Assembly (NCBI RefSeq): GCF_900172325.1
Contig: NZ_FWFR01000001.1
Span: 496,001-560,000 of the forward strand
Source: Oceanibacterium hippocampi
GTDB lineage: Bacteria; Pseudomonadota; Alphaproteobacteria; Sneathiellales; Sneathiellaceae
DNA: 64,000 nt
Direction of reading: 5' to 3'
Positions 1-16,241 of the stretch are shown one piece after another (the stretch's first letter is position 1; each line of letters starts with the position of its first letter). The translations under genes were made by a program, and so were the position numbers. The notes under the pieces were generated by a model. That model had not been told where the DNA came from. It searched no databases and worked only from the letters and a program-made list of their open reading frames with translations.

Positions 1-2568
1 CAGGACGACAACATGGTCAAAGGCCTTGGCGTCCTTCGGCCGGTGCAGCGACCAGACGACGCTGCGCCCTTTGAATTCCTCGAGCACCGACGCCATTATC
101 TTCTGCTGCGTCGCGCTGTCCAGCGCCGCGGTCGCCTCGGAGATGATCAGGAGATCCGGCCGCTTGATGATCGCCCTCGCCAGGGCCAGCTTCTGGCGCT
201 GGCCGACATTCAGGCGCGTGCCGGCAATGCCCACCTCGAAGCCGAGCCCGACGCTGGTGATGGTGTCGTACAGGTCGAGTTCGGCAACGACCTCGCCGAC
301 CAGCGCGCCGATCTTGTCGGAGGCCTGCGCCTGGCCGTAGGCGATGCGGCCGAACAGGATATTGTCCTGGATGTTCGAGGCGGCGTTGTAGCTGTCGACG
401 TCGAAGAAGGCGACCTTGCCCTTCAGGTCGTCGGGCAGCTTCTCTGCGAAGATCTTCCGCGCCGTTACGATGCTGGCCATCGTCTCGTCGCTGATCACGC
501 CGAGCCGGTGCCGGGCCTGGATCAGCTTGAAGGGAAGCGACAGCAGGCGGGTCCGTTCCTCGGGCTTCAGATCGTCGAGCCGGTCCCGTTTCACCCGCGT
601 CACCAGCGACTGGAAATCCTCCAGGTCGTCGGCGGCGATGAAGCTGTATTGCTGGAAGAACTCGTGATCGGGCGGGAGATCGGCGAACAGTTCGACCATC
701 AGGGTGGCGACTTCGTAGCCGTTCTCGAGAAGGGTCCGGGTCAGGCCGGCTTCCTCGAGCACTTCCAGCACGTAGGGATTCTCGGCCAGCCGGTTGATGT
801 CGAACGTCTCGTCGGTCGGCGTGCCGAACATCAGGTTCTCGGCCAGCGTGGCGTTGCTGTTGTAACGCTCGACATCGAACGGCTCGATCATGCCGGCGTA
901 GCTCTCGTTCGAGGCGACGTGGCGGGCAAAGCTTTCGCGCGCCTTAAGGATCGCTTCCGCCCAGTCGGGATGGGCGACCGGATCGATCGTGCTGCGCAGG
1001 CCGAACTGGTAGACGTCCTGATCCAGGCTGACGATGGCGAGCGCCTGCAGCCCGCGGGCAACGAGCGAGGAATAATCGGTCGCGCCGGCGGCCGCGTAAT
1101 CGGTCCAGTCGGACGTGATGTCGTCGGGCGAATTGCCCGAACGGATCGCCTCCTGCACGTAGCGCTTGTGCGCCTGCTCCATCGTCTCGTCGCGCTCGGG
1201 CTCGCCCAGCGGCAGATGACGCAGGCTGTAGAACAGGTTATCGCCGAGCGTCGTATTGAAGATGAAACCGCTCGGGCCGACGTAGGAAATCCGGCGGCCC
1301 GTCATTGCGGAGTCCGCGTTCGCAAGGTCGATGTCGCCGATCCGGATCGAGCCGCTGTCGGGCTGCCGCAGCCGGGCGAGCGCGAGCGCCAGTTCCTCGC
1401 GGCCCGAACCGCTCGGCCCGACGAGCGCCACAAACGACGGCAGCTTGAGCTGCAGGCTGACGCCTTCGATGAACGGATTGTCCTGCTCGTCGACCATGCC
1501 GAGATTGGAGACGACGATCTGCTCGCTGAGCGGCGGCACCTCGGTGACATGCGGCACATCGAAGCCGTCTTCCGCGATCCCGCTCGGGGAGAACTGCTCG
1601 ATCACCTGCTCGTACTTGATGCGGGCGTCTTCCTTCTGCTGGTAGTAGGTCAGCAGTTCCTTCCACGGCGCCGCCATGTCCTTGTGGGCGGCGATCGCGG
1701 CAACCAGCGTGCCGATCTCGAGTGATCCGGTGATCACCAGGTAGCCGCCGATCGAGTAGAAGAAGAACGGCCCGAGTTGCTGGATGAAATTGTTCAGGAA
1801 CTTGATGACGAACTTCTTCTGGTAGATGTCGAAACGGACGAAGAAGATGCTCGACATGCGGTGCGAGAAGTCCGACAGCATCAGCGCCGAGGTGTCGTGC
1901 GCATGCACTTCCTGCACGCCCTGGACGGTCTCGCCGATGCGGTCCGAGAGCCGGCGAACCAGGCGGACGCGTTCCTTGCCGAGCAGGTTCACCTGGCGCT
2001 GCAGACGCGGGATCAGGAAGGCCTGCAGCGGGTAGAGCGCGACCGCCGCGGCCGCCATCACCGGATCCTGGACGAGCAGGAAGCCGAGGATCACGAGCAG
2101 CGTGCCGCCCTGGAAGGCGGGCAGCGAGAAGGCGTCGCCGATGAAGCCGCCGAGCGTCTCGACCTCCTGGGTGATCATCGGGATGATCTCGCCCTGGCTC
2201 ATCTTGCGGAAGGTCGGCAGCGGGAAGCGCAGGAGGCGGAAATAGAGCTGGAACCGGAGGCGGCGCAGCATGCGTTCGCCGGTCAGGCCGCGATAGACGT
2301 TGATGACATATTTGAAAGCCTGGTTGATGACCACCAGGACGAGGAAAAGCCCGCAGAGCGCCAGCAGATACTGGATCTGTGTCAGCTCGATGCCGAAGAT
2401 ATCCGTCGGATACTCGATGCCCTTCGCCGAAATCCCCTTATTGATGATGATCTTCGGGACTTCGTAGAGCGCGTAAAGAAAGGGAAACGACAACCCGGCC
2501 ATGATCGTCAATATGATCTGCTGCCGCAGGCTGTAGCGGATGATAAAACGGTAGATTGTCGATTCCAT
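1..2568 (-). CDS. Degenerate ABC exporter-type protein, fused permease and ATPase (3' end cut by window)
   Basis: Reads leftward from ATG at 2568 for 856 codons and is still open at position 1, so the C-terminus is missing. Residues 1 to about 310 are a six-helix ABC exporter-like membrane half; hydrophobic stretches are visible near 16-36, 62-80, 155-185 and 265-292. The ATPase half starts near 340 but departs from the family: Walker A is GPSGSGREE (384-392, Arg390 for Lys), the Q-loop position reads YVGPSG (429-434, no Gln), the signature is LNVGQ (786-790), and Walker B is LLIISEATAALD (806-817, Ser810 for Asp, Glu811 kept). His842 of the H-loop remains. About 300 mostly helical residues (roughly 440-725) split the domain, with repeats of an N-x-TL-x-x-NL-type motif at 437-446, 569-582 and 727-740. 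It is divergent from a glycosyltransferase run, so glycan export is a reasonable guess, but ATP hydrolysis is doubtful. Confidence 0.85.
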   Translation of the reverse strand, partial: MESTIYRFIIRYSLRQQIILTIMAGLSFPFLYALYEVPKIIINKGISAKGIEYPTDIFGIELTQIQYLLALCGLFLVLVVINQAFKYVINVYRGLTGERMLRRLRFQLYFRLLRFPLPTFRKMSQGEIIPMITQEVETLGGFIGDAFSLPAFQGGTLLVILGFLLVQDPVMAAAAVALYPLQAFLIPRLQRQVNLLGKERVRLVRRLSDRIGETVQGVQEVHAHDTSALMLSDFSHRMSSIFFVRFDIYQKKFVIKFLNNFIQQLGPFFFYSIGGYLVITGSLEIGTLVAAIAAHKDMAAPWKELLTYYQQKEDARIKYEQVIEQFSPSGIAEDGFDVPHVTEVPPLSEQIVVSNLGMVDEQDNPFIEGVSLQLKLPSFVALVGPSGSGREELALALARLRQPDSGSIRIGDIDLANADSAMTGRRISYVGPSGFIFNTTLGDNLFYSLRHLPLGEPERDETMEQAHKRYVQEAIRSGNSPDDITSDWTDYAAAGATDYSSLVARGLQALAIVSLDQDVYQFGLRSTIDPVAHPDWAEAILKARESFARHVASNESYAGMIEPFDVERYNSNATLAENLMFGTPTDETFDINRLAENPYVLEVLEEAGLTRTLLENGYEVATLMVELFADLPPDHEFFQQYSFIAADDLEDFQSLVTRVKRDRLDDLKPEERTRLLSLPFKLIQARHRLGVISDETMASIVTARKIFAEKLPDDLKGKVAFFDVDSYNAASNIQDNILFGRIAYGQAQASDKIGALVGEVVAELDLYDTITSVGLGFEVGIAGTRLNVGQRQKLALARAIIKRPDLLIISEATAALDSATQQKIMASVLEEFKGRSVVWSLHRPKDAKAFDHVVVL

Positions 2569-2746
2569 ATAAGGGCCTTGGTTTCGTGGCCTGACGCCGA
2601 TTCTTTCCCTCGGCGAAGAACATATATTAGCGGCTTCGGGCCGTAAACGTTTCAAATCCAATCAAAAACACGCTTTCGGCTGAGGCGGTCGCCGTGTAAT
2701 AGTGCGGCCTTCATATCAGGGGCCTTTCGAGACTGAAGGGGACATA

Positions 2747-3955
2747 ATGGGATCGCGGATCCTGATATACAGTCACGACTCGTTCGGTCTCGGCCACCTG
2801 CGCCGTTGCCTGACGATTGCGCATTCGCTTGTCGATAATCACGAGGATCTTTCGATCCTGATCCTTTCCGGATCACCGATCATAGGCAGTTTCGATTTCC
2901 GCAATCGCGTCGACTTCGTGCGCGTTCCGGGCGTGATCAAGCTCCGCGACGGGGAATATACCTCGCTGAGCCTGGCCATCCATTTCGAGGAAACGCTCGC
3001 GCTTCGCGCCTCGATCATCAAGCACACGGCCGAGGTATTCGACCCGAACATCTTCATCGTCGACAAGGAGCCTCTCGGCCTGCGCGGCGAGGTCGGCGAG
3101 ACCCTCGAGCTGCTGAAGGGCCGCGGTACCCGCCTGGTGCTCGGCCTGCGCGACGTGCTCGACGAACCGCGCCTGCTGGCCCCGGAATGGGAGCGCAAGA
3201 ACGTCCTGCCGTCGCTCTGCAACCTGTATGACGAAATCTGGGTCTACGGCCTGCGCGAGATCTGCAATCCGCTCGAGGGCATCGGCATGCCGGCCTCGGT
3301 GCAGGAGAAGATGGTCTTCACCGGCTACCTGCCGCGCAAGGTCAGGGGCGCGATCAACGAGCCCCTGCCGGCCATCGTCGAGCGCCCCTATCTCCTGGTC
3401 ACGACCGGCGGCGGCGGCGATGGCGAAGGCCTGATCGAATGGGTGCTGCGCGCCTACGAGACAGATCCGCTGCTGCCCTATCCGGCGCTGCTCGTGCTCG
3501 GACCGTTCATGCAGGCCGACCGCCAGGTCGAGTTCCTGAACCGCGTCCAGCGCCTGAAGCGGGTCGAGGCGATTACCTTCAACGCCCACCTGGAAAGCAT
3601 CAGCGCGAAGGCCGCCGCGATCGTCTGCATGGGCGGTTACAACACCTTCTGCGAAGTTCTGTCGCTCAACAAGCGGGCGCTCATCATCCCCCGCACCGAG
3701 CCGCGGATGGAGCAGTTCATCCGCGCCAGCCGAGCCGAGAAGCTCGGCCTCGTCCGCATGCTGGCGGAAGACAAGAATTATCCGCCGGAGGTGATGGCCG
3801 AGGCGCTCCGCGCCTTGCCGAGCCAGCGCCAGCCGATGGACGTCGTGATTCCGGGCCTGCTCGAGGGGCTGGTCAACGTCAACCGACTGGCCACACCCTG
3901 GCTCGGCCAGCGCAATTCGGAGGCGGCAGAGTCCAGGGCGGCGGCCGGCGCCTGA
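2747..3955 (+). CDS. MurG-like glycosyltransferase (GT28-type C-terminal fold)
   Basis: 402 residues. The N-terminus has the GLGHLRR loop (14-20) typical of MurG-like GT-B enzymes. The second half has a TTGGGGDG glycine loop and then GGYNTFCEVL (about 296-305), the usual donor-binding region for a UDP-sugar. There is no signal peptide, so it should act at the cytoplasmic face. An in-frame GTG lies at 2702, but the ATG at 2747 follows a clear GAAGGGGA ribosome site and starts directly with the conserved beta strand. First gene of a 12-gene rightward run; the next start is 2 bp after its stop. A paralogue sits at 6929-8080. Donor and acceptor cannot be told from sequence. Confidence 0.88.
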   Translation: MGSRILIYSHDSFGLGHLRRCLTIAHSLVDNHEDLSILILSGSPIIGSFDFRNRVDFVRVPGVIKLRDGEYTSLSLAIHFEETLALRASIIKHTAEVFDPNIFIVDKEPLGLRGEVGETLELLKGRGTRLVLGLRDVLDEPRLLAPEWERKNVLPSLCNLYDEIWVYGLREICNPLEGIGMPASVQEKMVFTGYLPRKVRGAINEPLPAIVERPYLLVTTGGGGDGEGLIEWVLRAYETDPLLPYPALLVLGPFMQADRQVEFLNRVQRLKRVEAITFNAHLESISAKAAAIVCMGGYNTFCEVLSLNKRALIIPRTEPRMEQFIRASRAEKLGLVRMLAEDKNYPPEVMAEALRALPSQRQPMDVVIPGLLEGLVNVNRLATPWLGQRNSEAAESRAAAGA

Positions 3956-3957
3956 AC

Positions 3958-5211
3958 ATGACCGCGGCCGTGTCCGCCGTTGCCTTTATCCTGAAGGGCT
4001 ACCCACGGCTCTCGGAAACCTTCATCGCCCAGGAAATTCACGCCCTCGAAAGGCTCGGGCTCGATATCCGCATCGTCTCGCTACGCCATCCGACGGACAA
4101 GGCGCGGCACCCGGTGCATGGCGAGATCCGGGCCCAGGTCGGCTATTTGCCGGAATATCTGCATCACGAACCGTTACGCGTCCTGGGCGCGCTCGCCCGG
4201 GTCTGGCGGCGTCCCCGCTTCGCCGACGCCCTTGCCGCCTGGTGGCGCGACCTGAAACGCGATCCGACGCGCAACCGCGTCCGCCGCTTCGGCCAGGCGC
4301 TGGTCCTGGCGGCCGAGCTCGACCCCTCGGTCGGGCGCCTGCATGCACATTTCCTGCATACCCCAGCATCGGTCGCCCGCTACGCCAGCCTGCTGAGCGG
4401 CCTGCCGTGGAGCTGCTCGGCCCATGCCAAGGACATCTGGACAAGCCCGGCCTGGGAGATTCGCGAAAAACTGGCGGAACTCGACTGGCTGGTCACCTGC
4501 ACGGCGGCGAACGCCGACTTCCTCGCGGCGCTGGCGCCCGGCCCGGATTTGGTCCAGCTGGTCTACCACGGTCTCGATCTCGACCGCTTTCCGGCGCCCG
4601 AGCGATCGCCCGAGAGTACCGGACAAGGCGGGCCCCTGCGCCTGCTGACGGTCGCGCGCGCGGTCGAGAAAAAGGGCCTCGACGACCTGCTGAAGGCGCT
4701 GGCGATGCTGCCGCCCTCGCTCGACTGGCGTTGGGAGCATATCGGTGGCGGCCCGGACCTGCCGCGCCTGAAGTCGTGGGCCGCCGAGGCCGGCCTCAGC
4801 CCCCGCATAAGCTGGCGCGGCGCTGCCCCGCAGGCGGCGGTGATCGCCGCCTGTCGCGACGCGGACCTGTTCGTGCTGCCGAGCCGGATCGCCGCCGATG
4901 GCGACCGTGACGGCCTGCCCAATGTCCTGATGGAGGCCCAGTCGCAGCGTCTCGCCTGTGTCGCCACGGCGGTATCCGCGATCCCCGAGTTGATCAAGGA
5001 CAGCGAGACCGGGCTCCTGGTCGCCCCGGACGATCCGGCGGCGCTGGCCGCCGCGATCGAGCGCGCGGGCCGTGACCCGGACCTGCGCGACCGCCTCGCC
5101 GAGCGGGCGCTCGCCAACCTGCGGGAGAATTTCGCCCTGGCGCCCTGCCTCGCACCGCTGGCGGCCCGATTCGGCCTCGTCGCGGCGCCGGCCGCACGCG
5201 CCAACGGCTGA
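3958..5211 (+). CDS. Glycosyltransferase family 4, WcaL/AmsK-like
   Basis: 417 residues. The N-terminus (KGYPRLSETFIAQE) is typical of the colanic acid WcaL/AmsK branch of GT4. The C-terminal Rossmann half has TVARAVEKKGLDDLL and HIGGGPDLPRL, and a nucleotide-sugar motif DGLPNVLME near 317-325 in which the first acid of the EX7E signature is Asp. Start is ATG at 3958, 2 bp after the previous stop. No signal peptide or membrane helix, so it is cytosolic or peripheral. It likely adds one sugar to a lipid-linked or surface glycan together with its neighbours; the exact linkage is unknown. Confidence 0.88.
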   Translation: MTAAVSAVAFILKGYPRLSETFIAQEIHALERLGLDIRIVSLRHPTDKARHPVHGEIRAQVGYLPEYLHHEPLRVLGALARVWRRPRFADALAAWWRDLKRDPTRNRVRRFGQALVLAAELDPSVGRLHAHFLHTPASVARYASLLSGLPWSCSAHAKDIWTSPAWEIREKLAELDWLVTCTAANADFLAALAPGPDLVQLVYHGLDLDRFPAPERSPESTGQGGPLRLLTVARAVEKKGLDDLLKALAMLPPSLDWRWEHIGGGPDLPRLKSWAAEAGLSPRISWRGAAPQAAVIAACRDADLFVLPSRIAADGDRDGLPNVLMEAQSQRLACVATAVSAIPELIKDSETGLLVAPDDPAALAAAIERAGRDPDLRDRLAERALANLRENFALAPCLAPLAARFGLVAAPAARANG

Positions 5212-5218
5212 GCCTGCC

Positions 5219-6355
5219 ATGCGGATCGCCTTCTACTCGCCGCTGAAATCGCCGGACCATCCGAACCCGTCGGGCGACCGTCGCATGGCCCGGGCGCTGA
5301 TGGCGGCGCTCCGCGCCATCGGCCACGAGGTAACCCTGGCCAGCGAGTTCCGGAGCCTCGAGCCTGTCGGCGATGCCGACCGGCAGGCGGCCGTCCGCCT
5401 CGAGGGCGAAGCGATCGCAGCGCGTCTGATCGCCGGCTGGACGGCCGCGCCGGCCCGAGCCCCGGCGCTCTGGTTCACCTACCATCTCTATTACAAGGCG
5501 CCCGACTGGATCGGCCCGCGGGTCGCAGCCGCGCTCGGCATTCCCTATGTGGTTGCCGAGGCAAGCCACGCGCCGAAGCGGGCCCGCGGCCCTTGGGACC
5601 TGGGTCACCGCGCGGCCGAGGCGGCAATCTCGGGCGCCGCCGCGATCTTCGCCCTGACCCGTCACGACATGGCCTGCCTGCGCCCGGTGGTCAGCCGGCC
5701 CGACCGCCTGCATTACCTGCCGCCCTGGCTCGACGCCGGTCCCTACCGCGCCGCCGCCCGCGCCCGGCCGGAACATCGGCGGGCACTGGCCGCGTCCCTC
5801 GACCTCGATCCCGCGCTGCCCTGGCTGCTCGCCGTCGGCATGATGCGACCGGGCGACAAGGCGGCCTCCTACCACCTGCTCGCCGAGGCGCTCGAACGGC
5901 TCGGCACCCGCGGCTGGCAGGCGATCATGGTGGGCGACGGCCGGGCGGCGGACGAGATCCGCGCCCGTTTCGCACCGGTCGCCGGGCAGATTCGCTGGGC
6001 GGGCCAGATCGACACGGCGGCCCTGCCGGCAATCTACGCCACCTGCGACCTCTATGTCTGGCCGGCGGTCAACGAGGCCTTCGGCATGGCCTTCCTGGAA
6101 GCGCAGGCAGCCGGCCTGCCCGTCGTGTCGGTGGCAACCCGGGGCGTCCCGGACGTGGTCGCCGACGGACGGACCGGCCTGCTCGTCCCGGCGGACGATC
6201 CGGCCGCCTTCGCCGCCGCGATGCGCGCCCTGATCGACGACAAGACCCGCCGCCAGGACCTCGGGACAGCCGCGTCCCGCTTCGTCGCCGGGGAACGCGC
6301 GCCCGCCGGCGCCGAAGCGCTGCTGGCCGCCGTCATCAACGGGCTCCGGCCATGA
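5219..6355 (+). CDS. Glycosyltransferase family 4
   Basis: 378 residues, GT-B fold. It begins MRIAFYSPLKSPDHP with the SGDRRMARAL loop, and carries a full EX7E motif, EAFGMAFLE, at about 285-293, followed by AGLPVVSVATRGVPDVV as in retaining GT4 enzymes. An upstream in-frame ATG at 5072 exists, but it would overlap the preceding gene by 140 bp and adds 49 low-complexity residues; ATG 5219, 7 bp past the previous stop, is preferred. Its stop overlaps the next start (ATGA at 6352-6355). Part of the glycan run; specificity unknown. Confidence 0.88.
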   Translation: MRIAFYSPLKSPDHPNPSGDRRMARALMAALRAIGHEVTLASEFRSLEPVGDADRQAAVRLEGEAIAARLIAGWTAAPARAPALWFTYHLYYKAPDWIGPRVAAALGIPYVVAEASHAPKRARGPWDLGHRAAEAAISGAAAIFALTRHDMACLRPVVSRPDRLHYLPPWLDAGPYRAAARARPEHRRALAASLDLDPALPWLLAVGMMRPGDKAASYHLLAEALERLGTRGWQAIMVGDGRAADEIRARFAPVAGQIRWAGQIDTAALPAIYATCDLYVWPAVNEAFGMAFLEAQAAGLPVVSVATRGVPDVVADGRTGLLVPADDPAAFAAAMRALIDDKTRRQDLGTAASRFVAGERAPAGAEALLAAVINGLRP

Positions 6356-6936
6356 TCCGGCTCGCCCTTCTCCGGCATGGCCCGACCGCGTGGAATGCGA
6401 CGAAGCGGCTGCAAGGGCGAAGCGACCAGCCGCTGTCGGAAGCCGGGCGCGCCACCTTTGCCGGCAGGCGCCTGCCCGCCCGCTTCGCCGACTATGCGCT
6501 GGTTACAAGCCCGCTCCTGCGCGCCCGGGAAACCGCTTCCCTCGTCGGGCATGGCCCGGCACAAATCGAGCCGGCACTGATCGAGATGGATTTCGGCGCC
6601 TGGGAGGGGTGCACGATCGCGGAATTGCGCGAACGATACGGTGACGCAATGAAAGTGAACGAGGATCGCGGCCTCGACATGCAGCCGCCCGGCGGTGAAT
6701 CGCCCCGCGCCGTGCAGCGCCGCCTCGACGTCTGGCTCGCCGGTCTGCAACGGGATACCGTCGCGGTCACCCACAAGGGCGTCATCCGGGCGCTGTTGGC
6801 AGCCGCGCTCGGCTGGGATATGACGGGCAGGCAGCCGGTCAGGCTGGACTGGTCGGCGCTCCATCTTTTCGCCTGTTCGGGCGGCCGGACGGACCTCGTC
6901 GAAGCCAACATTCCGCTGGAGGCGATCGGTGACTGA
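6352..6936 (+). CDS. Histidine phosphatase family protein (phosphoglycerate mutase-like)
   Basis: 194 residues. The catalytic LRHGPTAWN motif is at 6-14, followed by RLQGRSDQPLSEAG, and the second catalytic region VTHKGVIRALLAA is near 140. Family members such as CobC, GpmB and SixA remove phosphate from small molecules or proteins. Inside a glycosyltransferase operon it may dephosphorylate a sugar phosphate or a lipid carrier intermediate; that is inference. ATG overlaps the previous stop by 4 bp, and the following GTG overlaps its own stop by 8 bp, which indicates translational coupling. Confidence 0.85.
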   Translation: MIRLALLRHGPTAWNATKRLQGRSDQPLSEAGRATFAGRRLPARFADYALVTSPLLRARETASLVGHGPAQIEPALIEMDFGAWEGCTIAELRERYGDAMKVNEDRGLDMQPPGGESPRAVQRRLDVWLAGLQRDTVAVTHKGVIRALLAAALGWDMTGRQPVRLDWSALHLFACSGGRTDLVEANIPLEAIGD

Positions 6937-8080
6937 GGGCGTGTTCTTCTACGTGCAGCATCTGCTCGGAATCGGGCATCTGCGGCGCGCCGCGACCATC
7001 GGCCGGGCCCTCGCCGAGGCCGGTCTCGACGTCGAGGTGGTCTCGGGCGGCCATCCCCTGCCCGGCCTTGATCTCGGTCCGGGCCGCCTGGTGCAACTCC
7101 CGCCGACGCGCGCGACCGACCTCTATTTCAAGGTCCTGGTCGACGAGAACGATCAACCGATCGACGACGCCTGGAAGGCGCGCCGCGCGAACGCCCTGAT
7201 GGAGGCATGGCGGGCCAGCCAGCCGACATTGCTGCTGTTCGAGCTGTTCCCCTTCGGGCGCCGTCAGATGCGCTTCGAGATCCTGCCGCTGCTGGAGGCA
7301 GCGAAGGCCTCGGCGCGCCCGCCGGTCATCGTCTGCTCGGTGCGCGATATCCTTGTCGCCCAGAACAAGCCGGAGCGAAACGACGAGATGCTCGACCTGA
7401 TCGAGCGATATTTCGATCACGTCCTCGTCCATGGCGATCCGGCGCTGATCCCCTTCGACGCGACCTTCCCGCCGGCCCACAAGATCGCCGACAAGATCCG
7501 CTATACCGGCTACGTGGTCGATCGCTCCGGCAGCCGGGGCGGCCCGGACAGTCCCGGCCACGACGAGGTGATCGTGAGTTGCGGCGGCGGCGCGGTCGGT
7601 CTCAACCTGCTCCGGACGGCAATCGCCGCACGCCCACTGACCGAAGCCGCCGGAAGGCGCTGGCGGGTGCTGGTCGGGGTGACCGTGCCCGAGGACGAGT
7701 TTCGCGCCCTCGCGGCGAGCGCGGGCGACGGCGTGATCGTCGAGCGCGCCCGGCCCGACTTCCCGACGCTGCTGATGAACTGCGCACTCTCGATCAGCCA
7801 GGGCGGCTACAACACCGTCATGGAAGTGCTTCATGCCGGATGCCGGGCCGTGGTGGTGCCCTACGCGGGTGGCCTCGAGACCGAACAGACGCTCCGCGCA
7901 CGGCTGCTCGGCGAACGCGGCGCGCTGACCACGCTTGCCGAGACCGAGCTCGATCCCGGCCGACTCGCCGCTACCGTCGACACCGCCCTTGCCGGGCCGC
8001 CGGCACGCTCGGCGGTCGCCACCAACGGCCTCGAGGAGACCGTCCGCCTGATCGAGGGCTGGACGCGGTCGAGCGGCTGA
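6929..8080 (+). CDS. MurG-like glycosyltransferase, second copy
   Basis: 383 residues starting at GTG 6929, inside the end of the phosphatase gene. It has the GIGHLRR loop (14-20) shared with the enzyme at 2747, a central SCGGGAVG glycine loop, and GGYNTVMEVL near 292 followed by an acceptor loop with GGLETEQTLRARLL. The overall plan matches MurG-type GT-B enzymes, but the protein is distinct from MurG itself, which normally sits in the cell-division cluster. Two such enzymes in one operon suggest two sequential transfers from UDP-sugars. Cytosolic or peripheral. Confidence 0.87.
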   Translation: MTEGVFFYVQHLLGIGHLRRAATIGRALAEAGLDVEVVSGGHPLPGLDLGPGRLVQLPPTRATDLYFKVLVDENDQPIDDAWKARRANALMEAWRASQPTLLLFELFPFGRRQMRFEILPLLEAAKASARPPVIVCSVRDILVAQNKPERNDEMLDLIERYFDHVLVHGDPALIPFDATFPPAHKIADKIRYTGYVVDRSGSRGGPDSPGHDEVIVSCGGGAVGLNLLRTAIAARPLTEAAGRRWRVLVGVTVPEDEFRALAASAGDGVIVERARPDFPTLLMNCALSISQGGYNTVMEVLHAGCRAVVVPYAGGLETEQTLRARLLGERGALTTLAETELDPGRLAATVDTALAGPPARSAVATNGLEETVRLIEGWTRSSG

Positions 8081-8085
8081 TCGAG

Positions 8086-8850
8086 ATGGCTTTCGCGACC
8101 GTCGTCCTGGAGCTCGATCGCTGGCATGCTGCGGGACGGACGGCCGACTTCTGGTGGCGCGACGACGACGCGGTCGCGGCCGGTCCGGCCCTCGACCGGC
8201 TGAGCGCCCTGGCCCGGCGCGCAGGCGTTCCCCTGGCGCTTGCGGTCATCCCGGCGAATCTCGATGATTCGCTTGGCGCCGGCGAGGGCCAATACGTGCT
8301 CCAGCATGGCTACGCCCATGCCAATCACGCCGGCCCCGACGAGAAGAAGTGCGAGCTCGCCGCGAACCGGCCGGCCGACGCGGTGCTCGACGAGCTGTGC
8401 CGCGGCCGGGCGATCCTGGAACGGCGCTTCGGCGCGCGTTTCCTGAATGTCCTCGTGCCGCCCTGGAACCGCATCGCGGCGCCGCTTGCGGCCCGTCTCG
8501 GCGAGGCCGGCTACACCGGCCTGTCGACCTGGAAAGCGCGCCCGGCGGCCGTGCCCCTATCCGGCCTCGTGCAGGTCAATTGCCATGCCGACCCGGTGAA
8601 CTGGCGCGGTGGCCGGGGCTATCTCGGCGACCAGGCCTTCGCCCTGCAGATCGCCGACCATCTGGCGGCGCGGCGCGAAGGGCGGGCCGATCCGGGCGAG
8701 CCGACCGGCATCCTCAGCCACCACCTGGCAATGGACGAGGCGACGTGGGGCGGCCTCGAACGACTGCTCGAACTGCTCGCCGGACATCCGGCGGCGCGTG
8801 CCCGCGACGCCGCTTCGCTGTTCGGTCCGGACCCGTCCGATGCAACCTGA
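8086..8850 (+). CDS. Polysaccharide deacetylase (NodB-like) family protein
   Basis: 254 residues. Family features are the early DFWWRDDD acidic motif (21-28, metal-binding and catalytic Asp candidates), QHGYAHANHA near 73-82 (metal His pair) and VPPWNR near 124. NodB-homology enzymes remove N- or O-acetyl groups from glycans. No clear signal peptide is visible, so it may act on a cytosolic, carrier-linked intermediate rather than on a secreted polymer. ATG 8086 lies 5 bp after the previous stop, and the next gene begins 11 bp before this one ends. Placement after four glycosyltransferases supports a glycan-modifying role. Confidence 0.82.
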   Translation: MAFATVVLELDRWHAAGRTADFWWRDDDAVAAGPALDRLSALARRAGVPLALAVIPANLDDSLGAGEGQYVLQHGYAHANHAGPDEKKCELAANRPADAVLDELCRGRAILERRFGARFLNVLVPPWNRIAAPLAARLGEAGYTGLSTWKARPAAVPLSGLVQVNCHADPVNWRGGRGYLGDQAFALQIADHLAARREGRADPGEPTGILSHHLAMDEATWGGLERLLELLAGHPAARARDAASLFGPDPSDAT

Positions 8851-9403
8851 GACTGCGACCGGGACCAGTGTCTATCGGTATGGCCGAAAGGCCCTGCTGC
8901 GCGACTATCGAAATGCCGGATTCGGGCTGTTTGCGACGGGTGCGCCGCTCTTGTTAGCAAATCCGTCATCTGTCATGGTTTATGTACTTGGTGCGCTGGC
9001 GGCCCTGTTCGCCGGCTACGGGGTGCGCGTGATCCATCGACAAGTGAGCGAAATCGTCATCGACGATTCGGCAATAAGGGTTCGCGGCCTCCTGGGAGGA
9101 CAACTGGACTGGGAGGAACTCGACGATATCCGGCTGCGCTACTATTCGACGCGACGGGATCGAAGCCACGGCTGGATGGAGCTTGTGCTCCACGGTCAAG
9201 GGCGGCGTATCCGCGTGGAATCCAGTATCGATGACTTCGATCGGCTCGTCGTGCGCGCAACCCGTGAAGCCCTCTCGCGCGACGTCATCCCAGACGCCAG
9301 CACGATGATGAATTTCAAGGCGCTGGATCTGGATCTCGGTCTCGATATCGAGGTCACCGAGACCCGCCGACGCTCCCGCAGCGCGTCGAAAGAAACGGAA
9401 TAA
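8840..9403 (+). CDS. Small membrane protein with bacterial PH-like domain, function unknown
   Basis: 187 residues; not recognised as a named protein. Two closely spaced hydrophobic helices (about 26-60) form a hairpin anchor, followed by a soluble beta-rich part with IDDSAIRVRG, LDWEELDDIRLRYY and a terminal amphipathic helix, the usual look of a bacterial PH (bPH) domain. The tail is basic and serine-rich. The gene starts within the deacetylase gene, and its stop TAA shares one base with the ATG of the ABC ATPase, so it links the glycan genes to the importer genes. It may be a membrane scaffold for the glycan enzymes, which is only a guess. Confidence 0.7.
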   Translation: MQPETATGTSVYRYGRKALLRDYRNAGFGLFATGAPLLLANPSSVMVYVLGALAALFAGYGVRVIHRQVSEIVIDDSAIRVRGLLGGQLDWEELDDIRLRYYSTRRDRSHGWMELVLHGQGRRIRVESSIDDFDRLVVRATREALSRDVIPDASTMMNFKALDLDLGLDIEVTETRRRSRSASKETE

Positions 9404-11289
9404 TGGCAAACGTCCTGCTCATTCGCGATCTCAAGGTCGAATTCCACGTCGCCGAAGGCGTCATTCGTGCCGTCGACGGCGTGTCCTTCCGGATACCGGA
9501 GGGCAAGACCGTGGCGCTGGTCGGCGAGTCCGGCTCCGGCAAGTCGGTGGTCAGCCAGTCGATCATGGGGATCCTGCCGAAACCGGCCAATATCGCCGGC
9601 GGCGAGATCCTCTATTTCGACCCGACCGCCCAGGGCCGCTTCGTCGATATCGCCAAGCTGAAGCCCGCCGGCAAGGAAATGCGGGGCATTCGCGGCCACC
9701 ATATCTCGATCATCTTCCAGGAGCCGATGACCTCGCTGTCGCCGCTCCATACGGTCGGCAACCAGATTACCGAGGCGCTGCGGCTGCACCGCGACGTCAG
9801 CGACGCGCAGGCCAACGAGATCACCGCCGAGATGCTGCAGCATGTCGGTTTTCCCAATCCGAAGGCGGCCCTGCACACCTATCCGTTCGAGCTTTCCGGC
9901 GGCCTTCGACAGCGCGCGATGATCGCCATGGCGCTGATCTGCCGGCCCGCCCTGCTGATCGCCGACGAACCGACGACGGCACTCGACGTCACCATCCAGG
10001 CGCAGATCCTCAAGCTGATGAAGGACCTGCAATCGGAACTCGGGATGGCCATCCTGATGATCACCCACGACCTCGGCGTGGTCGCCAACATGGCCGACGA
10101 GATCGTCGTCATGTATCACGGCAAGGTGATGGAGCAGGGCACGCTCGACGACATCTTCCGCCACGCCGAGCATCCCTACCTGAAGGCGTTGCTGCATGCC
10201 GTGCCGCGTTTCGACATGGCGCCGGGTGAGCGCCTGGTACCGATCCGCGAGATCGAGACCAAAATCGGATCGACCTACAGCCGTCCCGACGCCTGGCCGG
10301 AGGGTGCCGCCGACCGGCCGCTGCTTTCGGTCAGCAACCTGACCAAGCGCTTCGTCACCCGGAAGAACACCATCTTCGGCTCGAAGCCCGGCGGCGAGGT
10401 GCTGGCAGTCGACGACGTGAGCTTCGCCGTCAATCGCGGCGAATGCCTGGGGCTGGTCGGTGAATCGGGCTGCGGCAAGACCACGACCTCGAAGATCATC
10501 ATGCGGGCGCTGTCGCCGAGCAGCGGCGAGGTCACCTTCAACGACCGCGGCGAGATGGTCGATGTCCTGGCCCTCAAGGGCGACGCGCTGTTCGACTATC
10601 GCCGCAAGGTGCAGTTCATTTTCCAGGACCCGTTCTCGTCGCTCAATCCGCGCATGACGGTCTACGACATCATCCTGGAGCCGCTGATCATCCACAAGAT
10701 CGGGACTCCGGAAGAGCGCGATATTCGGGTCCGCGACCTGATGACCATGGTCGGCCTCGATGTCCGTTTCCTGCGCCGCTACCCGCACTCCTTCTCCGGC
10801 GGACAGCGCCAGCGGATCGGCATCGCCAGGGCGCTCGCGCTGCATCCGGAACTGCTGATCTGCGACGAGCCGGTTTCCGCCCTCGACGTTTCGATCCAGG
10901 CCCAGGTACTGAACCTCCTGAAGGATCTCCAGGCCGAGCTCGGCCTGACCTACCTGTTCATCTCCCACAATCTGGCGGTGGTCGACTATATCGCCGACCG
11001 GATCGCGGTCATGTGCGCCGGCCGGCTGGTCGAGGTCGCGCCCCGCGATCTGCTGTTCCGCAACCCCGTGCATCCCTACACGCAGGCGCTGCTCTCGGCG
11101 GTCCCGAAACCGGACCCGGGCGCCCGGCTCGACCTGAGCGCACTGATGGAAGGCAAGGCCTCGATCCCCTCCGCCTGGCCGGCGCCGTTCACCGTCGACG
11201 GCCGCACCCGGCCGGTTCTGCACGACCTCGGCGACGGCCATTTCGTCCGCGCCGCGCCCGATATTGAAGCGATGGAGTTGGCGTCATGA
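9403..11289 (+). CDS. Peptide ABC importer ATPase with two nucleotide-binding domains (YejF-like)
   Basis: 628 residues with two complete NBDs. NBD1: Walker A GESGSGKS (41-48), signature LSGGLRQ, Walker [16 protein letters not shown]2: Walker A GESGCGKT (353-360), signature FSGGQRQ, Walker [13 protein letters not shown]. Each domain ends in the oligopeptide-type C-terminal extension ([24 protein letters not shown]). This is the architecture of YejF/DppDF fusions that energise uptake of peptides or related oligomers. It precedes two binding proteins and two permeases in one run, giving a full transporter. Its ATG overlaps the previous stop by one base, so it appears coupled to the glycan genes upstream. 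Confidence 0.93.
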
Positions 11290-13208
11290 CCCAGCCTCCC
11301 GCCCGGACCGGTAACCGCGTCTTCACCCTCGCCGCACTGTTCCTTGCCGCGGCCGCCGCGCTCGCCAGCCCGGCGCAGGCCTACAGGGAACCGCCCAGCC
11401 TGGCGGAAAAGGTCGCTGCCGGCGAATTGCCGCCGATCGACAATCGGTTGCCCGCGGAGCCGCGCATCATCGACATGACGGCCAGCGGCCAGGTCGAAGG
11501 CCGCTATGGCGGCGATCTCAACACCATCATCGGCCGGGCCCGCGACGTGCGGCTGATGATGGTCTACGGCTATGCCCGGCTGGTCCAGTATGACGAGAAT
11601 TTCCGGTTCGTCGCCGATCTCGTCCGTGAGGTCGATGTCGAACAGGGCCGGATCTTCACCTTCCATCTGCGCAAGGGCCACAAATGGTCGGACGGCGAGC
11701 CCTTCACCTCGGAAGACTTCCGCTACTGGTGGGAGGATGTCGCCAACAACGAGGAACTGTCGCCTGCCGGGCCGCCGGCGGTACTGCTGGTCGAGGGCGA
11801 ACTGCCGACGGTCGAGTTCCCCGACCCCGAGACCGTGCGCTACAGCTGGTCGCGGCCCAATCCCGATTTCCTGCCGGCCATCGCCAACGCCGCGCCGCTG
11901 CTGATCTACCGCCCCGCGCATTATCTGAAGCAGTACCACAAGAACTACATGGATCTGGCCGGCATGTCGAAGATGCAGCAGATCCGCGTCCGCTCCTGGG
12001 CGGCGCAACACAACCAGCTCGACAATCTCTACAAGTTCGACAATCCGTCGCTGCCGACCCTGCAGCCCTGGATGAACACGACCGAACCGCCGGCAACCCG
12101 CTTCGTAGGCGAGCGCAACCCGTATTTCCACCGGGTCGACAAGAACGGCCACCAGCTGCCCTATATCGACCGCCTGATCTTCCATACCTCGGATACCAAG
12201 CTGGTGCCGCCTAAGGCTGCCGCCGGCGAGGCGGACCTGCAGGCCCGCTACCTCTACCTCAGCGACATCACCTTCCTGCGCGAGAACGAGGAGCGCTCCG
12301 GCTACCGGACCCTGCTCTGGCATACCGTGAGCGGCGCCCATCTGGCGCTCTTTCCCAATCTGACCTGCGAGGATCCGGTCTGGCATAGCCTGTTCAGGGA
12401 CGTCCGCTTCCGGCGCGCCCTGTCGCTCGGCATCGACCGGAGCGAGATCAACGAGGCGCTGTTCTTCGGCCTCGCGATCGAGGGCAACAATACCGTCCAG
12501 CCGGCAAGCCCGCTCTACGAAGACAGGTACACGACGACCTGGGCAACCCACGACAGCAAGCGCGCGAATGCGCTTCTGGACGAGATCGGACTGACCACCC
12601 GGGACGGGGACGGCATCCGCAAGCTCCCCGACGGGCGTCCACTTGAGATCATCGTCGAGACCGCCGGGGAGAGCCCGGAGCAGAGCGATGTCCTCGAGCT
12701 GATCGGCGCGAGCTGGCGCAAGATCGGCGTCAAGCTGTTCACCAAGCCGTCGCAACGTGACGCGCTCCGCAACCGGGTGTTCTCCGGCGAGGCCATGATG
12801 ACCATCTGGTCCGGTTTCGAGAACGGTGTCCCCAATGCGGATACCAGCCCGCGGGAACTCGCGCCGACCTCGCAGCAGCAGTATCAGTGGCCCAAATGGG
12901 GTCAGTATCACGAGACCAAGGGCGCGGCCGGTGAACCGCCGGACCTGCCGGAGGCGGTGGCGCTCGACCAGCTTTACCGCGACTGGTACGCGGCCGGCGA
13001 TGAAGCGTCCCGGACCGCGATCTGGCACGAGATGCTGGACATTCATGTCGAGCAGCAATTCACGATCGGCATCGTCAGTGGCGTCGTCCAGCCGGTCGTC
13101 GTCCGGAACGGACTCCGGAACGTCCCCGAGGAAGGCATTTACAACTGGGACCCGGGGGCACTTTTCGGGATATACGGCATCGATCGTTTCTGGTTCGACA
13201 AGGGCTGA
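11286..13208 (+). CDS. Family 5 extracellular solute-binding protein (peptide ABC importer), copy 1
   Basis: 640 residues. An N-terminal signal peptide of about 34 residues ends at AQA before YREPPSL. The mature protein has the SBP family 5 pattern: LRKGHKWSDGEPFTSEDFRYWWED near 120-140 and FRRALSLGIDRSEIN further on. It belongs to the long, roughly 640-residue branch seen with YejABEF-type systems. Exported to the periplasm, it would capture a peptide or similar oligomer. Its ATG overlaps the ATPase stop (ATGA). It is clearly homologous along its whole length to the next gene. Confidence 0.92.
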   Translation: MTQPPARTGNRVFTLAALFLAAAAALASPAQAYREPPSLAEKVAAGELPPIDNRLPAEPRIIDMTASGQVEGRYGGDLNTIIGRARDVRLMMVYGYARLVQYDENFRFVADLVREVDVEQGRIFTFHLRKGHKWSDGEPFTSEDFRYWWEDVANNEELSPAGPPAVLLVEGELPTVEFPDPETVRYSWSRPNPDFLPAIANAAPLLIYRPAHYLKQYHKNYMDLAGMSKMQQIRVRSWAAQHNQLDNLYKFDNPSLPTLQPWMNTTEPPATRFVGERNPYFHRVDKNGHQLPYIDRLIFHTSDTKLVPPKAAAGEADLQARYLYLSDITFLRENEERSGYRTLLWHTVSGAHLALFPNLTCEDPVWHSLFRDVRFRRALSLGIDRSEINEALFFGLAIEGNNTVQPASPLYEDRYTTTWATHDSKRANALLDEIGLTTRDGDGIRKLPDGRPLEIIVETAGESPEQSDVLELIGASWRKIGVKLFTKPSQRDALRNRVFSGEAMMTIWSGFENGVPNADTSPRELAPTSQQQYQWPKWGQYHETKGAAGEPPDLPEAVALDQLYRDWYAAGDEASRTAIWHEMLDIHVEQQFTIGIVSGVVQPVVVRNGLRNVPEEGIYNWDPGALFGIYGIDRFWFDKG

Positions 13209-13217
13209 TCGGTACGT

Positions 13218-15182
13218 ATGTCTTTCCAACGCAACTCCGTTTTCCCGGGCCTGCGCCCGGCACGCGTCATTGTTGGCGCGATCGCGCTGGTACTCGGCTG
13301 CACGAATGTCACGGCCGCCGCCCGCGCGGCCGATTATCTCGAACCGCCGCTGTTCGCCGAGCGGGTAGCCGCCGGCGAACTGCCACCTGTCGCAGCGCGG
13401 CTGCCCGACATGCCGAGCGTGGCCGCGATCGACGGGCCGGGACGGGAACCCGGGCAATATGGCGGCACGCTGCGCATGCTGGCGCCAACTGCTCGTGACA
13501 TCCGCCTGCTGGCGGTCTACGGCTATGCGCGGCTGGTCGCCTACAACGAGCAGCTCGAACTGGTGCCGGACCTTCTCGAAGCGGTCGAAGTCAAGGAAGG
13601 CCGCCGCTTCACCTTCCGGCTCCGGGCCAACCATCGCTGGTCCGACGGGCATCCCTTCACGACCGAGGACTTCCGCTACTGGTGGGAGGACGTCGCCGGC
13701 AACAGGACGCTGTCGCCGGCCGGCCCGCCGCGCGAACTGGCCCCGGACGGCAAGCTGCCGCAGTTCGAGGTGATCGACGACCGCACGGTACGCTTCACCT
13801 GGCCGGCGCCCAATCCGTATTTCCTGCCGGCCCTGGCCGGCGCGGCACCGCTGTTCATCTACCGGCCGGCACACTACCTGAAGCAGTTCCATGTCCGCTA
13901 CGCGGCGCCGGAGGCGCTGGCCAGGGCGGTCTCGGAGGCACGCACGCACAACTGGGCGGCGCTGCATAACCGCTACGACAATCTCTACAAGTTCGACAAC
14001 CCGGCCCTGCCGACCCTGCAACCCTGGCGCAACACCACGGCCTCCCCGGCTACTCGTTTCGTGGCCGAACGGAATCCCTATTTCCATAGGGTGGACGAGG
14101 CCGGCCACCAGCTGCCCTACATCGACAGAGTGATCGTGACGATCTCCGAGGGCAACCTGATCCCGCCGCGCACCAGCGCCGGGGAGGCCGATCTGCAGGC
14201 CCGCGGCCTGAGCTTCAAGGACATCACCTTCCTGAAGGAGAACGAGGAGCGTTCGGGTTACGACACGCTGCTCTGGCCTACCGCGCGCGGCGCGCACCGG
14301 GCCCTCTTTCCCAACCTGAACAACGGCGACCCGGCATTCCGCAAGCTGTTCCGGGATGTCCGCTTTCGCCGCGCGCTGTCGCTCGCCATCGATCGCGAGC
14401 TGATCAACGAGGCGCTCTACTTCGGCGTCGCGCTGCAGGCCAACAACGGCGTCCTGCCGCAGAGCCCGCTTTACGACCCCGAGGTTGCCTCCGAATGGAC
14501 GACGTTCGATCCGGCGCGTGCCTCGGCGCTGCTTGACGAGCTCGGCCTCGACAAGCGCGGCGGCGACGGCATCCGCCTGCTTCCCGACGGGCGGCCGCTC
14601 AACCTGATCGTCGAGAGCGCCGGCGAGGGATCGGAGGAAAGCGACCTGCTGGAGCTCGTCGGCACGACCTGGGCCGAAGTCGGCATCAAGCTGTTCATCA
14701 AGCCGCAACAGCGCGCCAATTTCCGCAACCGGGTCTTTTCCGGCGCGACCCAGGTCTCGATCTGGTCGGGCTTCGAGAACGGCATTCCGACGGCGGAAAT
14801 GAGCCCCGACGAACTGGCGCCGACCAGCCAGCAGCAATATCAGTGGCCGAAATGGGGGCAGTATTACGAGACCCGCGGCGCCAGCGGCGAAGCGCCGGAT
14901 CTCGAGGCGGCGACACATCTGCTGGCGCTCAACGCAGCCTGGCGGGTAGCGACGGAACAGTCCGAACGGGCGAAGATCTGGCGGGAAATGCTGTCGATCC
15001 ACGCCGAGCAGCAATTCGCGATCAGCCTGATCAGCGGCGTGCTGCAGCCGGTCGTGGTCCGCCGCGGCCTGATGAATGTGCCGACGGATGCGGTCTATAA
15101 CTGGGATCCCGGCGCCCATTTCGGCATCTACCGACCCGATACCTTCTGGTTCGCCGGTGACGATGCGGCCGGGAAAGAGTAG
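13218..15182 (+). CDS. Family 5 extracellular solute-binding protein, copy 2
   Basis: 654 residues, 9 bp downstream of its paralogue. It has a signal peptide (hydrophobic core VGAIALVLG, cut near ARAAD), then the same segments as copy 1 in the same order: GYARLVAYNEQLEL, RWSDGHPFTTEDFRYWW, FRRALSLAIDRELIN, and TSQQQYQWPKWGQY. Conservation is high in structural segments but lower in pocket-forming stretches, so the two copies may bind different ligands for one membrane complex. It could also be a lipoprotein-free dosage duplicate. No frameshift is seen. Confidence 0.92.
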   Translation: MSFQRNSVFPGLRPARVIVGAIALVLGCTNVTAAARAADYLEPPLFAERVAAGELPPVAARLPDMPSVAAIDGPGREPGQYGGTLRMLAPTARDIRLLAVYGYARLVAYNEQLELVPDLLEAVEVKEGRRFTFRLRANHRWSDGHPFTTEDFRYWWEDVAGNRTLSPAGPPRELAPDGKLPQFEVIDDRTVRFTWPAPNPYFLPALAGAAPLFIYRPAHYLKQFHVRYAAPEALARAVSEARTHNWAALHNRYDNLYKFDNPALPTLQPWRNTTASPATRFVAERNPYFHRVDEAGHQLPYIDRVIVTISEGNLIPPRTSAGEADLQARGLSFKDITFLKENEERSGYDTLLWPTARGAHRALFPNLNNGDPAFRKLFRDVRFRRALSLAIDRELINEALYFGVALQANNGVLPQSPLYDPEVASEWTTFDPARASALLDELGLDKRGGDGIRLLPDGRPLNLIVESAGEGSEESDLLELVGTTWAEVGIKLFIKPQQRANFRNRVFSGATQVSIWSGFENGIPTAEMSPDELAPTSQQQYQWPKWGQYYETRGASGEAPDLEAATHLLALNAAWRVATEQSERAKIWREMLSIHAEQQFAISLISGVLQPVVVRRGLMNVPTDAVYNWDPGAHFGIYRPDTFWFAGDDAAGKE

Positions 15183-15212
15183 CGTCGCCAAGGAAAGCGG
15201 ACCGAGCGAGCC

Positions 15213-16241
15213 ATGTTCAGTTACCTGATCCATCGATTGTTGATCATGATCCCGACGCTGCTGGTCATCAGCGTCCTGGTCTTCGTGATCATCCAGCTGC
15301 CGCCGGGCGACTTCCTGAGCAACCAGATGGACGAGCTCAAGGCGCAGGGCGAATCGGCCGCGGCACTGGCCAAGATCGAGTTCTACCGGGAGCTCTACAG
15401 CCTCGACAAACCGCTGATCCAGCAATACGCGATCTGGATGGGCTTCATGCCGGGGCCGGAAGGCTATGCCGGCATGCTGCAGGGCGAATGGGGGATGTCG
15501 TTCGAGCACAACCTGCCGGTCAGCGAGGTCATCGGCGACCGCATGGCGCTGACCATGCTGCTTAATTTCTCGACCATCATCTTCATCTATATCGTCGCCT
15601 TCCCGATCGGGGTCTATTCGGCGACCCGGCAATATTCGGTTGGCGATTACGGGTTCACCTTCATTGGCTATATCGGCCTGGCAACCCCGAATTTCCTGCT
15701 CGGCCTCGTCCTGCTCTACTATTTCAATGTCTATTTCGGGATTTCGATCGGCGGCCTGATGGACCCGGAATATCTCGATCAGCCGTGGAGCTGGGGCAAG
15801 GTGCAGTCGATCGTCGAGCATCTCGCGGTGCCGGTGATCGTGATCGGCACCGCCGGCACGGCGGCGATGATCCGCAAGCTCCGCGCCAACCTGCTCGATG
15901 AGCTGCAGAAGCAGTATGTCGTCACCGCGCGGGCCAAGGGGCTCGGCACCACCCGGCTGCTGATCAAGTATCCGATCCGGATGGCCCTCAATCCGTTCGT
16001 CGCCGACATCGGCAACCTGATCCCGTCGGTGGTTTCGGGCTCGGTCATCGTCTCGGCGGTGCTCAGCCTGCCGACCGTGGGCCCGACCCTGCTCGACGCG
16101 CTCAGGAGCCAGGACCAGTACCTGGCCGGCTCCTTCCTGATGTTCCTGGCGCTGCTCACCGTCGTCGGCGTCTTCATATCGGATCTGCTGCTCGCCATGC
16201 TCGATCCGCGTATCCGGCTTGGCGGAGGAACAGGGCGATGA
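15213..16241 (+). CDS. Peptide ABC importer permease, YejB/DppB-like
   Basis: 342 residues. One N-terminal helix, then a large extracytoplasmic loop with GEWGMSFEHNLPVSEVIGDR, then the BPD_transp_1 core of about five helices. The EAA cytoplasmic loop reads ARAKGLGTTRLLIKYPIR. This is the YejB-type layout with a long loop between helices 1 and 2. ATG is at 15213, 30 bp after the second binding protein, with GAGCGAG as a weak ribosome site. Pairs with the next gene to form the membrane channel. Confidence 0.92.
   Translation: MFSYLIHRLLIMIPTLLVISVLVFVIIQLPPGDFLSNQMDELKAQGESAAALAKIEFYRELYSLDKPLIQQYAIWMGFMPGPEGYAGMLQGEWGMSFEHNLPVSEVIGDRMALTMLLNFSTIIFIYIVAFPIGVYSATRQYSVGDYGFTFIGYIGLATPNFLLGLVLLYYFNVYFGISIGGLMDPEYLDQPWSWGKVQSIVEHLAVPVIVIGTAGTAAMIRKLRANLLDELQKQYVVTARAKGLGTTRLLIKYPIRMALNPFVADIGNLIPSVVSGSVIVSAVLSLPTVGPTLLDALRSQDQYLAGSFLMFLALLTVVGVFISDLLLAMLDPRIRLGGGTGR

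Follow-up and report, generated by a model that had tools for sequence, protein, structure and literature searches.

The described systems closest to the protein presented here are the type IV ABC exporters (MsbA, Sav1866, TM287/288), with which it shares both the fold and the architecture of an ABC_membrane domain joined to an ABC_tran domain. It differs from them in carrying an insert of ~280 residues with two extra Q-loop/helical units, and in having no intact set of ATPase motifs. The ABC frame can also serve as a regulator rather than a pump, as in SUR1 and SUR2 of KATP channels, which are eukaryotic, nucleotide-binding members of ABCC. Unlike the present protein, SUR1 and SUR2 have no CNB partner and no insert. 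Function despite partial loss of catalytic motifs, which appears to be the situation here as well, is found in the heterodimeric exporters with one degenerate site, such as TM287/288, TmrAB, BmrCD, TAP, CFTR and MsRv1273c/72c (PMC12038006). These exporters differ from the present protein, which loses the catalytic and the signature motifs in one chain and has no linked canonical partner.

The combination of a CNB domain with an ABC exporter is found in HetC of Nostoc and in the cyanobacterial NHLP/bacteriocin exporters (TIGR03896). HetC requires its CNB domain in vivo, this domain binds ppGpp in vitro, and an ATPase residue of HetC is also essential (PMC10986499). HetC is thus a precedent for the control of an exporter through a CNB domain, although it needs its ATPase, has a C39 peptidase, carries its CNB domain at the N-terminus and has no such insert described. 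Searches of the open-licence PMC literature retrieved HetC for a CNB domain with an ABC exporter, nothing relevant on CNB-ABC pairs or degenerate ABC proteins in Alphaproteobacteria, and, under guessed locus tags, no functional paper on the Sinorhizobium meliloti orthologue. As far as these limited searches show, the loss of the whole catalytic set in one chain, conserved throughout a class, matches no bacterial category described in that literature.

Two named exporters can be set aside as identities. Against the NCBIfam equivalog for the lipid A exporter MsbA the protein scores 194.6 bits (cut-off 602), and it stays below the cut-offs of all families matched. MsbA2 of S. meliloti (SMb21191) is an ABC exporter-like protein encoded in a glycosyltransferase operon on pSymB; the msbA2 operon lies near 938 kb, whereas the orthologue of the present protein lies at 841.7-844.4 kb.

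The window, that is, the whole stretch of DNA analyzed (64,000 nucleotides of Oceanibacterium hippocampi, C16:496001-560000), opens with an ABC-exporter-like gene that starts with ATG at position 2568, runs on the minus strand and continues beyond position 1. Read to its stop in the host genome (C16:495914-498568), as the preliminary description had proposed, the full-length product (P0001, whose residue numbering is used here) has 884 amino acids. Its start methionine is common to all relatives in the alignment. The features of the gene are as follows, in window coordinates and all on the minus strand.

1-2568, minus strand: ABC-exporter-like protein, residues 1-856 of 884; the last 28 residues are encoded beyond the window, as far as C16:495914.
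1594-2556, minus strand: transmembrane domain, residues ~5-325 (Pfam ABC_membrane 66-292), from Pfam and AlphaFold2 helices.
1393-1419, minus strand: Walker A GPSGSGREE (384-392), with Arg390 replacing Lys and Glu391 replacing Ser/Thr, from the alignment.
1231-1290, minus strand: Q-loop segment copy 1 (427-446, ISYVGPSGFIFNTTLGDNLF), lacking Gln, from alignment and profile comparison.
391-1230, minus strand: insert (447-726), with no Pfam family and no PDB match by fold or profile.
823-873, minus strand: Q-loop-like repeat copy 2 (566-582, VERYNSNATLAENLMFG), from alignment and profile comparison.
652-675, minus strand: PPDHEFFQ block within the insert (632-639), identical in all 12 sequences of the host's family and conserved but variable across the class.
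349-399, minus strand: Q-loop-like repeat copy 3 (724-740, VDSYNAASNIQDNILFG), running into the normal helical subdomain, from alignment and profile comparison.
199-216, minus strand: signature RLNVGQ (785-790) where LSGGQ is expected, from the alignment.
133-153, minus strand: Walker B region LLIISEA (806-812), with Ser810 for Asp and Glu811 retained, from the alignment.
43-45, minus strand: H-loop His842, retained here and mostly replaced in relatives, from the alignment.

The order of domains is that of a type IV ABC exporter, a transmembrane domain followed by an NBD in one chain: Pfam recognizes ABC_membrane above its cut-off, and ABC_tran in two separate pieces. An AlphaFold2 model built with 34 sequences (the window protein and its relatives) is exporter-like (pLDDT 83.9, pTM 0.77), weak in its transmembrane part near residues 160-180 and 280-300, and aligns with solved type IV exporters, reaching a Foldseek TMt of 0.60-0.61 to TM287/288.

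The sequence that separates Q-loop copy 1 from the canonical helical subdomain is where the chain departs from the exporter frame. The preliminary description had noticed about 300 extra residues before the signature, with repeats that looked like a duplication; the insert measures about 280 residues (~447-726), and the duplication was, if anything, understated. The Q-loop segment and the start of the helical subdomain are present three times (424-562, 556-720 and 714-815). Pairwise profile-profile comparison of these units with hhalign gives scores of 46.9, 80.4 and 47.0; 20 column shuffles per pair never exceed 13.7, 24.5 and 15.7, respectively, and unrelated segments of P0001 score 10-13. 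Because the units score so far above the shuffled controls, the insert is concluded to have originated through repetition of the Q-loop/helical start. Modelled alone, the insert and its flanking repeat (437-763) reach a pLDDT of 90.6; a PDB fold search with this model returned nothing significant (best E 0.31), and the insert has no Pfam family and no profile or sequence relative in the PDB.

The ATPase motifs themselves are extensively altered. Arginine for the Walker A lysine, the missing glutamine of the Q-loop (Pro432), the LNVGQ signature and SE in place of DE at Walker B had all been read correctly in the preliminary description. Its further point, that the H-loop histidine is kept, holds for the window protein but is atypical of its relatives, in which the position is mainly Gln, Asp, Ser or Gly, and His in 32 of 153. 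When seven features are scored (Walker A Lys, Walker A Ser/Thr, Q-loop Gln, signature SGG, Walker B Asp, Walker B Glu and His), the window protein has only Glu811 and His842, too few for the motif set of an ATP-driven pump. The 153 distinct alphaproteobacterial-type sequences behave similarly: 35, 45, 42, 21, 8 and 2 of them have 0, 1, 2, 3, 4 and 5 features, respectively, so that 122 have at most two and none has six or seven. In a sister clade, by contrast, all seven are present in 28 of 28 sequences; its phylum is that of Pseudodesulfovibrio (Thermodesulfobacteriota, a name that rests on the center of the sample being Pseudodesulfovibrio).

In a tree of 100 rows, calculated by a quick method after removal of the insert and motif columns, the intact clade has a support of 91 and the degenerate clade 99. 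One extremely divergent member (L139, genome G305; branch length 9.4), which has no linked CNB protein, groups with the outgroup, probably through long-branch attraction, and was set aside. The ABC motifs are ancestral to the ABC superfamily. The direction of change is therefore loss, and the catalytic motifs were most likely lost in the alphaproteobacterial branch. Conservation among homologues thus holds for both the insert and the motif loss within Alphaproteobacteria, whereas the motifs are intact in the sister clade. Intact-motif homologues without an insert would have marked the window gene as a decayed single copy; those that exist have the same insert (290-residue equivalents). The insert is therefore independent of the catalytic loss, and the two are separate events.

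The insert was detected in 131 of 385 sampled Alphaproteobacteria genomes (87 of 277 genera) and in 23 of 26 genomes of the host's order. The host's family also includes Sneathiella, and the complete proteins of the two genera share 55-57% identity. All 31 hits in a 398-genome sample of the phylum fall in the same class, although this sample, whose composition by class is not shown, does not prove absence elsewhere. Named carriers include Sneathiella, Minwuia, Ferrovibrio and Rhodospirillaceae MAGs, and, more distantly, Pseudodesulfovibrio; plasmid and chromid records extend the list to Rhizobium, Sinorhizobium, Ruegeria and Azospirillum. One homologue (L055, genome G233) has a single in-frame TAG close to where the insert begins, possibly a recent loss. 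On pSymB of S. meliloti 1021 (L196, 841723-844435), the aligned copy has 2713 bases against 2712 in strain 2011 and its longest open frame has 805 rather than about 904 codons; the Rm1021 record copy may be interrupted or misread. Between close relatives, whole-gene dN/dS is 0.03-0.09, with mostly similar values for the insert; these are approximate, since dS is close to saturation for several pairs. The ABC gene is under purifying selection.

The constant neighbor of the ABC gene is a CNB gene. In the host genome it is the next gene downstream, outside the window (L005:11438-11893, minus strand), and its 151-residue product has one CNB domain (PF00027). A CNB gene lies within 1.3 kb of the center of the insert in 112 of 122 loci. 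In the sister clade it directly follows the ABC gene, usually with overlapping frames, in 20 of 20 loci other than Pseudodesulfovibrio itself, and in several lineages (e.g., L134, L144 and L150) the CNB domain is fused to the ABC C-terminus. The phosphate-binding cassette of the host protein is complete (GEIAVLIDVPRTAT), completeness being defined as GE.A......R.A[TS]. The same is true of 89 of 108 alphaproteobacterial CNB proteins, as against 1 of 20 in the sister clade with intact ABC motifs. The one exception in the sister clade is genome G793 (L224/L248), in which the ABC and CNB sites are both intact; it branches first in its clade, which fits the expectation for an ancestor with both sites. 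In fused Rhodobacterales-type members (L131-L136, L194) both sites are degraded, and one Rhodobacterales-like genome (G178) encodes three paralogous fused ABC-CNB proteins of this kind (L134, L135 and L136). Striking as it is, the exchange between ABC motifs and CNB cassette is essentially a single deep split between the two clades and should not be counted as a series of independent tests. The ligand of a CNB domain can differ from a cyclic nucleotide, as the binding of ppGpp by HetC illustrates (PMC10986499).

On its other side, the ABC gene is flanked by a cluster of glycan genes and an Opp-type importer, transcribed divergently from it, with a cyclase gene at the end.

2702-3955, plus strand: MJ1255/GT28-like glycosyltransferase, divergent from the ABC gene and first of the linked glycan cluster, from Pfam/NCBIfam and neighborhoods.
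3958-8080, plus strand: two GT4 glycosyltransferases, a histidine phosphatase and a second GT28-like glycosyltransferase, in an order conserved beside the ABC gene.
8080-9403, plus strand: polysaccharide-deacetylase-like gene (labelled by analogy with an annotated rhizobial gene, with no Pfam hit) and small membrane protein gene, both recurrent.
9403-17410, plus strand: Opp-type importer with a double ATPase, two SBP_bac_5 proteins and two permeases.
17420-18769, minus strand: class III adenylate/guanylate cyclase, the last gene of the glycan/Opp cluster.

The MJ1255/GT28-like first gene lies close to the ABC gene in 73 of 122 loci, and Opp genes occur in the larger gene clusters that Rhizobium, Sinorhizobium and Azospirillum have here. 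The two SBP_bac_5 proteins of the importer operon (11286-15182) are adjacent and similar, whereas annotated rhizobial clusters list one. In 13 of 34 genomes, with positions compared by hand, the orthologue of this cyclase keeps the same relative place, at a distance of 12-20 kb from the ABC gene; this linkage comes from an orthologue query, as PF00211 counts are blurred by the many paralogous cyclases in each genome. Rhizobial clusters also contain a cyclase. Part of the ABC/CNB family has no glycan genes nearby, so the link to a glycan substrate is indirect.

The best explanation, to which we assign a probability of roughly 45%, is a type IV ABC-fold dimer, perhaps a homodimer, that does not hydrolyze ATP, is controlled by the CNB protein and a cyclic nucleotide, and handles a glycan or glycolipid. 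The window protein would be one component of a two-protein membrane system, in its alphaproteobacterial branch; the system consists of an ABC-fold protein with a triplicated Q-loop/helical unit and a CNB subunit. In the sister branch, where every ATPase motif is present, the ABC part is presumably driven by ATP. In the alphaproteobacterial dimer the NBDs would still close, although ATP would not be hydrolyzed; the D-loop Asp (Asp817 in P0001), the Walker A Gly389 and the signature Gln are retained in 86-93% of the alphaproteobacterial sequences, and the dimer face thereby appears to be kept. The Arg/Lys-Glu/Asp pair in the Walker A pocket could act as a stand-in for the nucleotide. The cyclase of the cluster would produce cAMP or cGMP, and the CNB subunit, on binding it, would take over the switch role of ATP and shift the dimer, probably via the insert. 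The dimer would then control the passage, assembly or transfer of a glycan or glycolipid that the linked glycosyltransferases produce. The sequences establish the motif loss, the purifying selection, the repeats of the insert, the linkage and fusion of the CNB protein and the linkage of the cyclase, whereas the dimer state, the absence of hydrolysis, the cyclic-nucleotide gating and the glycan substrate are inferred from them. The preliminary description had raised the idea of a non-hydrolyzing machine on an ABC frame, and at the level of sequence this idea is well supported by the family-wide motif loss in Alphaproteobacteria together with purifying selection. More tentatively, a formerly ATP-driven exporter may have become a cyclic-nucleotide-gated membrane gate, its motor switched off throughout the class and the CNB site lost in reverse in the sister clade. 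It is equally tentative that the triplicated Q-loop unit would be the coupling module of such a gate, one present in no solved structure.

Two main rivals have to be weighed against the CNB-controlled dimer. The pair could be a signalling receptor or regulator and no transporter, with an SUR-like ABC frame that acts as a sensor for a ligand in the membrane or periplasm and, together with the CNB protein, regulates glycan synthesis or the Opp-type importer. Complete loss of the catalytic motifs in a conserved fold and the CNB partner would suit such a protein. So would the neighborhoods of Pseudodesulfovibrio and some other intact members, in which SpoIIE, HATPase_c_2 and STAS genes are found instead of glycan genes; partner-switching loci stand beside intact ABC or ABC/CNB genes at L127:3486-6421, L130:3627-6470 and L247:5937-6443. 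This suggests a link of the intact-ABC loci with partner-switching signalling (SpoIIE phosphatase, HATPase_c_2 anti-sigma-type kinase and STAS). However, the transmembrane domain is conserved like the rest of the protein and matches exporters, and the sister clade with its intact motifs points to descent from a transporter. A pure regulator is considered fairly unlikely.

The second rival retains ATP: the NBDs would bind it with no hydrolysis or very slow hydrolysis, and binding would still drive one conformational switch. The Walker A Lys position is basic (Lys or Arg) in 131 of the 153 alphaproteobacterial sequences and position 811 is acidic in 97, which makes nucleotide binding or slow turnover possible; the P-loop glycines, the D-loop and the signature Gln are conserved as well. 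On the other hand, the Mg-coordinating Ser/Thr of Walker A has become Glu/Asp in 123, the Walker B Asp is left in only 20 and the Q-loop Gln in only 35, and some members have no Walker A Lys/Arg (S. meliloti, GGTSGGGEA). An ATP-binding switch is considered unlikely.

The preliminary description had also considered a heteromeric partner, in which case the protein would be the degenerate subunit of an exporter heterodimer of the TM287/288 or TmrAB kind, with its canonical ABC partner encoded elsewhere. Among PDB sequences, the transmembrane domain and first NBD half of P0001 match TM0288, and the host genome encodes many exporters that could supply an unlinked partner. Yet a second ABC exporter gene linked to the ABC-like gene was found in none of the scanned neighborhoods, and known heterodimers are degenerate at one composite site only, whereas Walker A, Walker B and the signature are lost here in the same chain. 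The proposal is unsupported, and such a heterodimer is improbable. A decaying pseudogene, which motif loss taken alone might suggest, is rejected because of the dN/dS values, even approximate as they are, because more than 100 genomes have, almost without exception, full-length open frames, and because gene order is conserved.

The family marks a widespread candidate surface-glycan cluster that is also present in Rhizobium and Sinorhizobium. It offers a natural comparison, in which one insert-bearing scaffold exists in clades with and without ATPase motifs, the CNB ligand site having decayed in the opposite clade. This comparison makes it testable whether a second messenger can run an ABC fold in place of ATP.
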